Origin: a bacterium
GTDB taxonomy: Bacteria > Armatimonadota > UBA5829
Direction of reading: 5' to 3'
Assembly: GCA_021373255.1 (NCBI GenBank)
Contig: JAJFTD010000198.1
Span: forward strand, 1-46,256
DNA length: 46,256 bases
Shown here: positions 50-37,895 of the stretch, piece by piece
How positions within the stretch are numbered: the stretch's first letter is position 1
How the letters are laid out: each line of letters begins with the position of its first letter
Position numbers and translations under genes: made by a program
The notes under the pieces: generated by a model
Told to the model about the DNA's origin: nothing
What the model saw: only the letters and a program-made list of their open reading frames with translations
Database searches by the model: none

Positions 50-158
50 CTTCTCCCACCACCTCGACTTGATCAGTGGTATGAAGATACCCAAATGTTG
101 GGATACTAATACAGCAAGCAACCTTAAATTTTTCGGTGTGATATAAAAAACTTGGGAA

Positions 159-208
159 CCGGGTCACAGACCCGGAATAGGGGCGTCCAGGGTCACAGAC
201 CCTGGACG
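159..208. repeat. Hairpin doublet with ACA loops, copy 1
   Basis: Two perfect inverted repeats lie side by side downstream of ychF. The first is a 7-bp stem (CCGGGTC, loop ACA, GACCCGG) at 159-175. The second is an 11-bp stem (CGTCCAGGGTC, loop ACA, complement) at 184-208. Both have the core GTCACAGAC. The same two-hairpin arrangement recurs at 36958-37007 with changed but still complementary stem bases. There is no T-run, so a plain intrinsic terminator is unlikely. It looks like a REP/BIME-type element or a structured 3' UTR. Confidence 0.8.
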
Positions 209-231
209 ATCATGATATAGCTGAAGGTTTA

Positions 232-1320
232 TCAGACCTTGAACCTGATATACATCACATCGCAGTCCTGCACTATATAGTCTTTGCCCTGCAGCACGAC
301 TATACCCTTTTGCTTTGCGGCTTCCCAACCACCGGCGGCTTCGACGTCTTTGAAATTGGCTACTTCTGCACGGATGAAGCCTCGTGCGAGGTCGGAGTGG
401 ATACTTCCCGCCGCGTCTACAGCTCTGGAACCCGCCCTGAGCGTCCACGCGCGGACTTCGGGCTCACCGGCTGTGATGAACGAGATCAATCCGAGAGATT
501 GATAACAGGCACGGATGAGGACATTGCGCGCAGGCTCCTCTATGCCCATCGACTGAAGAAATTCGGTTTCTTCCTCATCGGAAAGCTGCGAGACTTCCAT
601 CTCTACAGCGGCGCATAAGTCGATCTCAGGCACACCCGATTCTGCGCATAGAGCTTTCAACTTTATAGCCTGCTCGCTGGGAGAGCCTATCTCACTTTCG
701 GGAATGTTGAGGACTGCAATCACGTGCTTGAGCGTAAGGAAATCGTATCCACGAATAGCCTTTTCCTCGTCCGGCGTAAACTCCAATGACTGCAGCGGCG
801 TCCCCTCTTCGAGAGCAGATTGAATACGCTGGAGCATATCCATTTCTGTTGTTACCGGGCTGGTGGTGCCTTTTTTTACTCCATGTAGCTGCTTTTCCAC
901 GCGAGCGATGCGGTTCTCAACCAGTTGCATATCAGCCAGTGTAAGCTCGTCCTGCAGTGCTTGGATGTCCTGAATGGGTGTAGGCTCCTCGCCCGCTGTC
1001 CCCGTGAATCCACGAACAACGTGCACGAGCATATCTACTTGCCGCACGTCAGCAAAGAAGTCCGACCCGAACCTGGTTTTGCCCTGATCGGTGGCGATAC
1101 GCGCGGCGCCATCGATAAACTCGATGCTGGCATAGGTTATTTTCTTGGGTTTATATTCGTTGGCGAAGTAATCGATCCTACTATCCGGTACACTGACAAC
1201 GCCGATATTGGGCTTGCCGGACTGACCATAAGTTTCTTCAACTTTCACCGTGCCCCGCGTAAGCGCCTTAAACAAAGTGGTCTTACCCGAACTGGGCAGC
1301 CCCACGATTCCAACTCTCAT
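232..1320 (-). CDS. ychF: Ribosome-binding ATPase YchF (Obg-type P-loop protein)
   Basis: This is a 362-residue member of the YchF subfamily of translation-factor-class P-loop proteins, which bind ribosomes and hydrolyse ATP in preference to GTP. The Walker A motif GLPSSGKTTLFKAL is close to the N-terminus. It carries SSGKT where most family members have NVGKS. The G4 site reads VLNIPESE, with Asn and Glu in place of the GTPase NKxD, which is the known basis of relaxed nucleotide specificity. A coiled-coil stretch follows (ENRIARVEKQL). The C-terminus is the TGS-type domain ending GKDYIVQDCDVMYIRFKV. The start at 1320 is preferred over the in-frame ATG at 1338 because AGGTGA lies 8 nt before it. 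Length is normal. Confidence 0.95.
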   Translation of the reverse strand: MRVGIVGLPSSGKTTLFKALTRGTVKVEETYGQSGKPNIGVVSVPDSRIDYFANEYKPKKITYASIEFIDGAARIATDQGKTRFGSDFFADVRQVDMLVHVVRGFTGTAGEEPTPIQDIQALQDELTLADMQLVENRIARVEKQLHGVKKGTTSPVTTEMDMLQRIQSALEEGTPLQSLEFTPDEEKAIRGYDFLTLKHVIAVLNIPESEIGSPSEQAIKLKALCAESGVPEIDLCAAVEMEVSQLSDEEETEFLQSMGIEEPARNVLIRACYQSLGLISFITAGEPEVRAWTLRAGSRAVDAAGSIHSDLARGFIRAEVANFKDVEAAGGWEAAKQKGIVVLQGKDYIVQDCDVMYIRFKV

Positions 1321-1357
1321 ATTCACATTCACCTGCATCCTGTTTTGTTAACATAGC

Positions 1358-31780: not shown

Positions 31781-31857
<77 letters not shown>

Positions 31858-31877
31858 ACAACCAATTATGCACCGAC

Positions 31878-31907
31878 AATATACTACGTTCGGGCTTGTC
31901 TTGTCAA
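31878..31907 (-). promoter_or_regulatory. Promoter of tRNA-Pro
   Basis: TTGACA (31902-31907), 18 bp, TATATT (31878-31883) on the minus strand, about 20 bp before the tRNA 5' end. Confidence 0.7.
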
Positions 31908-31948
31908 GCGTCGAAGTAGCCCAATTAGGCGTGTCGGATCGAAAAAGC

Positions 31949-32310
31949 AGGTGTGAGCGAGCCTGTAAGCCGGGTTTTGTCTTGGATGATCATCTATCTA
32001 CGCGCACGCGTTGCCGCGCGGCTTTAGCGGCTCACCCGGGAGGTCGGCGGGCAGCGTCAGCCCTCCCCTATTCGGCCTTGCTCCAGGTAGGGTTTACCAA
32101 GCCTCCGCCTCACGACGGAGCTGGTGGTCTCTTACACCACCGTTTCAGCTTTCCTCCAGCGGCTCCAAACGGAGACGCCAAAGGGTTTTCTTTTCTGTGG
32201 CACTTTCCTTATTCCAGTTACGGAACAGTTGCCGCTGGCAACCACCTTGCCCTGCGGAGCCCGGACTTTCCTCCCCGATTGCTCGGGGCGATCACCCGAC
32301 TCGCTCGCCT
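31949..32310 (-). ncRNA. rnpB: RNase P RNA (bacterial type A)
   Basis: On the minus strand the RNA opens with GGCGAGCGAGTCGGGTGATC. It contains the P4 and conserved-core signature GAGGAAAGTCCGGGCTCC near the 5' end, AGACCACCAGC and AATAGGGGAGG in the middle, AGATAGATGAT near the 3' part and ACAAAACCCGGCTTACAGGC before the closing GCTCGCTCACA, which pairs with the 5' end. It is the catalytic RNA that trims tRNA 5' leaders. Ends are placed to within a few bases. It lies just upstream of tRNA-Pro on the same strand. Confidence 0.97.
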
Positions 32311-35787: not shown

Positions 35788-36930
35788 ATGAAGCAGGAAC
35801 TTACTTCAAGAGAACGAATGCTGGTTGCTATGGCGCATGGTGAACCGGACACTGTGCCAGTTTCTCCAGATATCTCCAATATGATACCGTGCCGTCTTAC
35901 CGGTAAGCCATTTTGGAAGATATATCGAGACCAGGACCCGCCGCTGTGGAAGGCTTATGCAGATGCCGTGCGCTACTTTGGGTTCGATGGGTGGCAGATG
36001 CATGGGTCCATGGATTACATGTATGCCGATGCGGAATGGTCGTTTTCTGAAGATATAGTATCATCATCTGAGGACAGATTGGTCACGCGCACCACTTGCC
36101 ACACGCCCAAGGGCGACCTGTGGATGGAGACGACTTACTACTGTGACAACCCTCCCACCGCGACTCGCAAGTGGATAAAAGACCTGCAAGAGGACATGCC
36201 TCGTCTACGGTATATGTTCCCGAAGATTGTCGGCTACAACGACACGCGTTTCCGCGAGCAGCAGGCGTATTCGGGAGACACGGCGGCGTGCACAATATGC
36301 GTTCCGGTGCCTGGTCTGCAGGACTTGGACTCGTGGTTTGATGGCGGGGTAGCAGCCGCTGCCTACGCTGAAGCTGATTATCCTGGCGAGTTCGCGGAGC
36401 TTGTGGCTTGGCAGTCGGAATATTACCTCCAGATGGCCGAAATGAACATCGCCGCCCAACCGGATTTCTTTATGATGGGTGCAAGCGGGCTGTGGACCCT
36501 GCAATCACCCCACCACTTCCGGCGCTACAGCCTTCCCGTAATACAAAAAATGACCGTAATGGCCAAACAGGCAGGGCTGTCATCATTCCTCCACAGTTGC
36601 GGCAAGCAACGCCAGCTTGTAAGCATCCTTGCCGAGGAGACGGACCTGGACGTGGTCAACCCTCTGGAAATTCCCCAAATGGGCGACTGCGACCTTGGCG
36701 AGATCAAAGCTACTTTCGGTGACAGGCTGGCTTTAATGGGAAATATTCACACCACTGATGTTATGCTCAGAGGCACACCTGATACAGTTCGAGAGGCATG
36801 CGAGCAAGCAATCCAATCTGCAGCCCCCGGCGGTGGGTTCATACTATCCACAGGCGATCAATGCGGCCGCGATACCCCTGATGAGAACATCCTCGCGATG
36901 GTGGAGACTGCCAGGGGGTATCGTTATTGA
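35788..36930 (+). CDS. Uroporphyrinogen-decarboxylase family protein, paralogue 3
   Basis: A 380-residue URO-D superfamily protein. The start is ELTSRERMLVAMAHGEPDTVPVSPD. FMMGASGLWTLQSPHHFRRYSLPVIQKM, FLHSCGKQRQLVSILAEETDLDVVNPLEIPQMGDCDLGEIKATFGDRLALMGNIHTTDVM and GGGFILSTGDQCGRDTP are typical. The HSCG motif is the probable zinc site of MtaA-like corrinoid methyltransferases, which the other two paralogues lack. This copy is therefore the best candidate for a real methyl-transfer enzyme. No corrinoid protein gene is adjacent. Ribosome-binding site is a weak GCGAGG. Confidence 0.88.
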   Translation: MKQELTSRERMLVAMAHGEPDTVPVSPDISNMIPCRLTGKPFWKIYRDQDPPLWKAYADAVRYFGFDGWQMHGSMDYMYADAEWSFSEDIVSSSEDRLVTRTTCHTPKGDLWMETTYYCDNPPTATRKWIKDLQEDMPRLRYMFPKIVGYNDTRFREQQAYSGDTAACTICVPVPGLQDLDSWFDGGVAAAAYAEADYPGEFAELVAWQSEYYLQMAEMNIAAQPDFFMMGASGLWTLQSPHHFRRYSLPVIQKMTVMAKQAGLSSFLHSCGKQRQLVSILAEETDLDVVNPLEIPQMGDCDLGEIKATFGDRLALMGNIHTTDVMLRGTPDTVREACEQAIQSAAPGGGFILSTGDQCGRDTPDENILAMVETARGYRY

Positions 36931-36957
36931 GATTGCTAACTATCCATCATTAGGAAA

Positions 36958-37007
36958 GCGGATCACAGATCCGCAAGAGGTGGGTCCCAGGTCACAGACC
37001 TGGGACC
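36958..37007. repeat. Hairpin doublet with ACA loops, copy 2
   Basis: GCGGATC-ACA-GATCCGC (36958-36974) and GGTCCCAGGTC-ACA-GACCTGGGACC (36983-37007) are perfect 7-bp and 11-bp stems. Order, sizes, loop and downstream ATCATG match copy 1 at 159-208. It lies 28 bp after the URO-D stop codon, again in a 3' flank. Confidence 0.85.
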
Positions 37008-37091
37008 ATCATGTAACCATCTACCATCATGCCATCAAACCATCCGATCATCAAGCTATTTAGCCCACCCACCAATCCAGCCATCCGACCA
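37008..37091. repeat. Short imprecise CCATC repeats
   Basis: About eight loosely spaced copies of CCATC or ATCAT in 85 bp (CCATCATG, CCATCTACCATCATG, CCATCAAACCATCCGATC). They fill the space between the hairpin doublet and the convergent methyltransferase gene. No coding or terminator signal was seen. Confidence 0.6.
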
Positions 37092-37895
37092 TCAAACCCG
37101 CTGCCCTGTTGCGGCGAAGAGTTCGCAGCTGTTCCAGGTGCTTACGCAGGAGGGGCGATCGGGGTCGGGTTCGCAGAGGTAGGTTTCTACACCGGCACGC
37201 TCGATTATGCGCATTCCACTTGAGCGCAGTATTGCCTCCACTCCCGCTCGGTTAGGAATCCACCAGTTGGTGGGGTCGCCGGAGAACATGTGCTCAACGA
37301 ATGCCATCTTCGGCCAGCCGGAGGCGCAAAGGGTGTCGCGTTGGTAGAGGCCAAGGTCGTAGATGTTGTTTACTATATCTTCTCCCGGCAGCATCGCAGT
37401 TTGGAAGATGAGATTACGCTGGACCTTTTGTGCCACAATGTCCATAGCCAGAAGTGGATAGCGGAGGTGATAGAAGACACCCATGAACAGGACTATATCA
37501 AACTTATCATCGATGTGGGCGAGATCGTAGACCTGCATCTGCTTGAGTGTGACATGATTTTCCAGGTTGAATTGTCTTGATGCCCACTCCGCTTGCGTTA
37601 GGTAGTGGGGGTTAATATCAATACCGGTAACCTGTGCACCACGCTTGGCTAGTTCTATGGAGTAGAAGCCCGCGTTACATCCGATCTCAAGCGCGGTCCA
37701 GCCATCCAGATTAACAGGAATACTATTCGAGAACTCCAGCCACTTATACGATGGGAAATCCCCCAGGTATGTATCGGGTGAAGTCTGGGAGCCGTCCGGC
37801 AGATGGATATTCTGAAACCACGGTGCAAGTTCGGCAATTCTGCTCTGGATCGACTCTCCCTCTTGTTGATTGCCTGGCCCGTCTGAGATTACCAT
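37092..37895 (-). CDS. Class I SAM-dependent methyltransferase of the glycan cluster
   Basis: A 267-residue methyltransferase. ALEIGCNAGFYSIELAKRGAQVTGIDIN forms motif I and the acidic loop. FDIVLFMGVFYHLRYPLLAMD is motif IV, close to CmoB/DUF1698. From memory it resembles the TIGR04290 methyltransferases found next to glycosyltransferases. It would add a methyl group to a sugar or carrier in the cluster's product. AGGAGGTC lies 6 nt before the ATG. It is the last gene of the minus-strand glycan operon. The W-F-Q-N-I-H-L start and C-terminal cysteine (NSCELFAATG) are typical of the subgroup. Confidence 0.83.
   Translation of the reverse strand: MVISDGPGNQQEGESIQSRIAELAPWFQNIHLPDGSQTSPDTYLGDFPSYKWLEFSNSIPVNLDGWTALEIGCNAGFYSIELAKRGAQVTGIDINPHYLTQAEWASRQFNLENHVTLKQMQVYDLAHIDDKFDIVLFMGVFYHLRYPLLAMDIVAQKVQRNLIFQTAMLPGEDIVNNIYDLGLYQRDTLCASGWPKMAFVEHMFSGDPTNWWIPNRAGVEAILRSSGMRIIERAGVETYLCEPDPDRPSCVSTWNSCELFAATGQRV

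Follow-up and report, generated by a model that had tools for sequence, protein, structure and literature searches.

Few repeats are as common in bacterial genomes as REP elements, and subterminal hairpins that are read by a Y1 HUH transposase also mark the ends of insertion sequences of the IS200/IS605 family, such as IS608 and ISDra2. The RAYT proteins of groups 2 and 3 recognize a GTAG tag together with a single hairpin, and in one of these proteins the tag is able to determine where cleavage takes place (PMC8266576). The bench work reported in the sections of the cited literature drawn on here concerns only these single-hairpin GTAG REPs of RAYT groups 2 and 3. REPs form outward-facing inverted pairs, and their copies avoid divergent gaps between genes (PMC3733652, PMC2817692). 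Two descriptions are closest to the element analyzed in the present work. Di Nocera et al. (2013; PMC3733652, Fig. 9) depicted “double palindromic TIRs” around some tyrosine transposase (TIRYT) genes, and PMC6006769 reports that the RAYTs of subclass 2.6 (group 5, mostly from Bacteroidetes), which have the motifs NH[LIV]H, YIH[QN]NP and SS, a length of 179 aa and a 21-residue insertion before the W motif, are flanked by “atypical secondary structures”, found by hand, that lack GT[AG]G.

The window analyzed here, the whole of a 46,256-nucleotide stretch of DNA, contains two sites for which the original prediction had claimed a shared two-hairpin architecture with compensated stem differences at about five pairs. 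The architecture is as described, and both sites are copies of one 55-nt element which consists of an A, a 7-bp hairpin (hairpin 1), an 8-nt linker, an 11-bp hairpin (hairpin 2) and ATCA (Table 1), with ATCATG directly after the 11-bp stem in each copy. The stems of the two copies differ at exactly five pairs (pairs 1 and 5 of hairpin 1 and pairs 1, 6 and 7 of hairpin 2), and the difference is compensated at all five. Both strands of the window copies give the same two hairpins as DNA, and the folding of the element as single-stranded DNA, evaluated against shuffles, has z = -6.7 to -7.8 on either strand. The predicted location in 3' flanks was borne out as well: copy 1 lies between the stop codons of convergent URO-D family and methyltransferase family genes, and copy 2 lies between the ychF stop codon and the apparent start of the next gene. 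The ATCA that ends the element is a candidate counterpart of the GTAG guide.

Table 1. Positions of the element copies, their parts and the neighbouring genes; coordinates refer to the window unless a contig (C174) of the same genome is given.
Feature	Position	Strand	Remarks
Element copy 1 (subfamily B)	36957..37011	+	hairpin 1 and linker identical to those of the RAYT-flanking copies
Copy 1, hairpin 1	36958..36974	+	stem GCGGATC/GATCCGC, 7 bp, loop ACA
Copy 1, linker	36975..36982	+	AAGAGGTG, 8 nt
Copy 1, hairpin 2	36983..37007	+	stem GGTCCCAGGTC/GACCTGGGACC, 11 bp, loop ACA
Copy 1, end tag	37008..37011	+	ATCA, conserved; reads TGAT on the other strand, 5' of the foot of hairpin 2
Element copy 2 (subfamily A)	158..212	+	19 bp from the YchF stop codon
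Copy 2, hairpin 1	159..175	+	CCGGGTC ACA GACCCGG
Copy 2, hairpin 2	184..208	+	CGTCCAGGGTC ACA GACCCTGGACG
URO-D family gene	35788..36930	+	stop codon 26 bp before copy 1
Methyltransferase family gene	37092..37895	-	convergent neighbour
ychF (GTPase) gene	232..1338	-	copy 2 in its 3' flank
RAYT gene	C174:5468-6001	-	~177 residues
RAYT-flanking element copy (subfamily B)	C174:5391-5445	-	
RAYT-flanking element copy (subfamily B)	C174:6051-6105	+	

Other features of the window lie near the element or elsewhere in it. Directly 3' of copy 1, positions 37008-37110 hold a degenerate tandem run of a word of ~8 bases (CCATCAAA/CCATCAGA). The genome contains the word pair CCATCAAACCATC 21 times, mostly in apparently intergenic arrays, compared to 0 occurrences of its reversed control; this second dispersed repeat family adjoins three doublets (on contigs C9, C147 and C157). 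On the minus strand, positions 31784-32307 carry an RNase P RNA (class A) and then a tRNA on the same strand.

The exact apex word of the element, GGTCACAGACC, is found 20 times in the genome and its reversed control 3 times, which argues that the doublet is not a product of chance; this copy number relative to the control, together with slid and shuffled pair controls, rules out a chance origin. A covariance model (R1) was built from 14 oriented copies, whose gap-free 55-column alignment shows strong covariation. In the 4.19-Mb genome it yields 49 matches at E<=0.01, 41 of these at E<1e-10, with one locus at overlapping contig ends (C47:7752 and C123:90449) counted twice among the 49; the distinct copies number about 47. 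The copies are neither few nor broken in their stems: across 35 distinct copies from the own genome, pairing is kept in 97.2% of pair cells and 82 double changes are observed, compared to 25.8 in shuffles, which strongly supports the predicted selection on structure. Part of this covariation is the difference between two lineages, because the copies fall into two subfamilies, A (CCGGG..., outer pair of hairpin 2 C-G) and B (GCGGA..., outer pair G-C), of which the window holds one copy each; hairpin 2 varies in compensated ways even inside the subfamilies. Single hairpins of either type appear only as a handful of partial copies among the genome matches. In the flanks outside the element conservation is limited to a weak purine bias, and a target site was not found there.

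The arrangement of the copies was evaluated from their 1.5-kb flanks with a simple ORF caller, and none of the 18 copies with clear neighbours lies in a divergent gap. In close pairs (within ~230 bp; n = 19, own-genome and other-genome copies pooled), the first copy is on the minus strand and the second on the plus strand, with the ATC ends outward, in 14 cases, compared to an expectation of 25% (p = 1e-5). These 14 pairs have the inverted order with outward tags that defines a REPIN or BIME; most copies are single. The own genome contributes four independent close pairs, since two units on contig C123 are one duplicated pair. These BIME-like units (C123:29400-29575 and C123:31128-31264) have a common spacer of ~60 bp, and the left element of the second lacks hairpin 2, a loss that a deletion between short repeats of CCCGG may explain. 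In four genomes of the same genus (G001-G004) the 3' flank of ychF does not carry the element and cannot be aligned with the flank in the window. In a further relative (G005, locus L206) the place that copy 2 occupies in the window, 3' of ychF, holds a different pair of hairpins, GGGCAGGATT GCA AATCCGCCC and GCCGGATC...GATTCCGGC.

When the own genome was screened for Y1 transposases, a gene was identified on contig C174 which lies exactly between two inverted copies of the element. The flanking copies belong to subfamily B, like window copy 1; the upstream one is ~50 bp from the gene and the downstream one ~20 bp. On both sides the short hairpin is turned toward the gene, and the long hairpin is distal, its ATC end turned outward. 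Copies of subfamily A flank no RAYT in this genome. The start codon of the gene appears, on our reading, to be TTG or GTG after GGAGG. The protein scores 104.2 bits against the NCBIfam model NF047646 (REP_Tyr_transpos), for which the cut-off is 80, and passes Pfam Y1_Tnp; the sole solved relative found by sequence is the E. coli TnpA_REP (4ER8), which has 7 residues at the site of the insertion before the W motif, where the C174 protein has 30. The motifs of the protein are NHFH, YIHNNP and KYSS, with the H-x-H, Y and N-P columns invariant, and in length and motifs it agrees with subclass 2.6 (group 5), with F in NHFH instead of L, I or V.

A comparable locus is found in a genome from another family (f2) of the order, on contig C162 of G015, where a RAYT 54% identical to that of C174 has its own diverged doublets on both sides, oriented as at C174, and both loci have the composition of a REP/RAYT unit (REPtron). 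A RAYT with strongly scoring doublets on either side was seen in these two genomes only, among assemblies of which many are fragmented. The RAYT gene of this type is single in the own genome. At least five further RAYT-like genes or fragments are present there (L106 on C124, L114 on C82, and others on C139, C118 and C102), and some of these have other flanking hairpins, such as GTTTCGGGAAA...TTTCCCGAAAC at C82, which makes it probable that the genome harbours several REP-like families side by side. Because of these other genes, the cognate pairing of the element with the C174 RAYT rests on the bracketing combined with co-occurrence. At two loci elsewhere (L105, on contig C39 of G015, and L121), a RAYT lies amid several hairpins of 11 to 13 bp, of which three are repeated in tandem downstream of the gene with a period of 42; at L121 the model matches are placed as at L105, with a constant offset.

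Beyond this genome, the model R1 also matches diverged copies within the genus, the family, the order and the class. Among 29 such copies, double changes are found at 16 of the 18 pairs and pairing is kept in 94.7% of cells, counts which lean toward the model because the alignment was fitted to it; slid controls fall far below these pairing counts. What is kept across genomes is the layout, namely the short hairpin, ~8 nt, the long hairpin and ATC. The best-kept unpaired letters are the ATC beside the long hairpin, which on the other strand are NGAT at its 5' foot, the position at which a guide would be expected. A search of 291 genomes of the phylum with a broader covariance model (R2) detected the element in 12 genomes, the own genome and 11 other Armatimonadota, the latter with diverged copies. 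A RAYT of the C174 type (E<=1e-20) is present in 40 of the 291, and 10 of these also have the element. Within the class the element occurs in 10 of the 12 genomes with this type of RAYT and in 0 of the 16 without it (p = 5e-6), and within the phylum in 10 of 40 as against 2 of 251 (p = 4e-8), p-values which overstate the case because the genomes have common ancestry. The two exceptions that have the element without this type of RAYT (G058 and G063) have RAYT matches of a more distant kind. In G021 and G022 a related RAYT is accompanied by other hairpins and not by the doublet.

Since copies of the doublet bracket a RAYT gene and co-occur with RAYT, it is best explained as a DNA element of the REP/RAYT kind, and we are highly confident that it is a non-autonomous, REP-like, putative mobile element that represents the terminal repeat of a RAYT (HUH/Y1) of the subclass 2.6 or group 5 type. 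The basis for this assignment is the copy number, the covariation, the bracketing of a RAYT in two genomes, the co-occurrence, the inverted pairing, and a joint change of the apices. The last of these is seen in the innermost pairs and loops of hairpins 1 and 2, which agree better within a genome than when they are exchanged between genomes (p = 0.005), and it suggests that one protein, probably a dimer, reads both hairpins. Related RAYTs from other phyla (Bacteroidota and others) are often flanked by inverted repeats. At these RAYTs, where only flanks with a shared inverted repeat were counted (n = 56) and the far side served as control, a second, shorter hairpin is found on the gene side in 23 of 56 flanks and on the far side in 10 of 56 (p = 0.012). 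The second hairpin is present on both flanks at nine of these loci, and good examples of the two-hairpin form are L123, L135, L148, L155, L168 and L181. The co-changing apices and the more frequent gene-side position of the second hairpin are the reasons for proposing a single dimer that reads both hairpins.

If the element functions in this way, then both hairpins would most likely extrude when the DNA is single-stranded, for example in the lagging-strand template, and on the active strand a RAYT dimer would bind the element by reading the similar apices of the two hairpins, with the NGAT that is conserved at the foot of the long hairpin acting as a guide in the manner of GTAG in classical REPs. 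Cleavage beside the hairpins would then be followed by the copying or movement of the DNA to new sites, a movement that presumably continues, and most of these sites would lie 3' of a gene, where an insertion causes little damage. The odds appear evenly balanced that group 5 or subclass 2.6 RAYTs as a class use such a bipartite substrate, made up of two unequal tandem hairpins ~8 nt apart whose matching apices are bound by the halves of a dimer, and in which a tag specific to the clade, NGAT in the present case, takes the place of GTAG. If this is true, then bipartite recognition constitutes a mode distinct from that of groups 2 and 3, whose REPs have a single hairpin.

The original prediction had offered RNA hairpins on the one hand and cruciform or REP sites on the other as the level at which selection acts; the RAYT bracketing and the co-occurrence favour the REP alternative, and a purely RNA role found no support. 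If the doublet acted as RNA, either as a 3'-UTR structure that stabilizes mRNA ends or as a bidirectional terminator, then selection on the RNA would explain the covariation, and it would be in keeping with this that the copies lie 3' of genes and are absent from divergent gaps, that the stems are strong on both strands, and that many REPs are probably transcribed (PMC3733652). The element, however, has no T-run, as had been predicted, and no terminator call; Rfam has no family for it, and the only Rfam matches over the gathering score in the window are the RNase P RNA and the tRNA. Departures of the G.T kind number 30 and those of the A.C kind 19, a difference which is not significant (p = 0.15), so that neither strand is clearly favoured. 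A role as RNA would, moreover, leave the bracketing, the co-occurrence and the outward orientation of pairs unexplained, and it is distinctly improbable as the main explanation, while a secondary RNA effect of the element is possible. An intrinsic terminator as such was rejected, as the hairpin has no T-run after it.

Two further explanations treat the association of the hairpins, with the RAYT or with each other, as fortuitous. The copies could be MITE-like sequences or terminal-repeat relics of some other transposon that have come to lie beside the RAYT by chance, in genomes that do harbour several families of RAYTs alongside numerous other hairpin repeats; this is very improbable, given that diverged doublets with the same geometry are found at two RAYT loci in different families and that the genomes of the class without a RAYT of this type are also without the element. 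There is only the slightest likelihood that the doublet is a chance head-to-tail arrangement of two independent classical REPs, even though the apices of the two hairpins are similar and head-to-tail dimers of GTAG REPs exist, albeit rarely (PMC3733652), because the 8-nt spacing and the unequal stems of 7 and 11 bp are fixed in nearly all full-length copies, a closely similar layout recurs in other genera and families, the element carries no GTAG tag, and partial copies with one hairpin amount to just a handful.

The claim that no named family has this form holds only in part, since double-palindromic TIRs (PMC3733652) and the atypical structures of subclass 2.6 (PMC6006769) are on record. Membership in two established REP types was considered and rejected. 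A GTAG REP would have an unpaired GTAG or GTGG at the 5' foot of its hairpin, where the element has ATC[AG] after hairpin 2 (which reads NGAT on the other strand) and AAGAGGTG before it. Membership in the CGTC REPs, which would require an unpaired CGTC at one end, was rejected because the CGTC letters are paired and vary: they lie inside stem 2, in subfamily A only, and are GGTC in subfamily B. With classical GTAG REPs the element shares short intergenic palindromes located 3' of genes, stem-preserving changes, a RAYT between inverted copies, and outward inverted pairs of the REPIN or BIME kind (PMC2817692, PMC3116915, PMC3733652), but those REPs have one hairpin and a GTAG or GTGG guide where the element has two hairpins and NGAT. 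CGTC REPs, as described in PMC3733652, are likewise abundant tagged palindromes, and their letters appear in subfamily A, but they are without a dedicated transposase. In contrast to IS200/IS605, the transposase gene of the element is single and the terminal hairpins are dispersed alone, so that it is not a multi-copy insertion sequence.

The closest resemblance is to the double palindromic TIRs, since here too a Y1 transposase gene lies between inverted repeats, each with two self-complementary tracts, and copies occur elsewhere as singles and pairs. Those TIRs are, in the account given in PMC3733652, described for a few species and without covariance analysis; the GGGGWSAS motif that many of them, though not all, contain is absent from the element (the nearest sequence is GGGGCGTC, in subfamily A), which has instead a fixed 7 + 8 + 11 layout and the NGAT tag. 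The subclass 2.6 systems share with it the motifs and size of the transposase, the lack of a GT[AG]G tag, and copies elsewhere in the genome, but their hosts are mostly Bacteroidetes rather than Armatimonadota, and the passages of PMC6006769 cited here give no tandem two-hairpin form; such a form may already be drawn in the supplement of that paper or in that of PMC3733652. The covariance model finds such elements, which have no Rfam family, in genomes of Armatimonadota, and the element itself provides a precise, covariance-backed candidate substrate, outside Proteobacteria, for the poorly described enzymes of group 5. The class to which the element belongs is a known one, and its tandem two-hairpin form without a GTAG tag is an under-described variant which recurs in other bacterial phyla.
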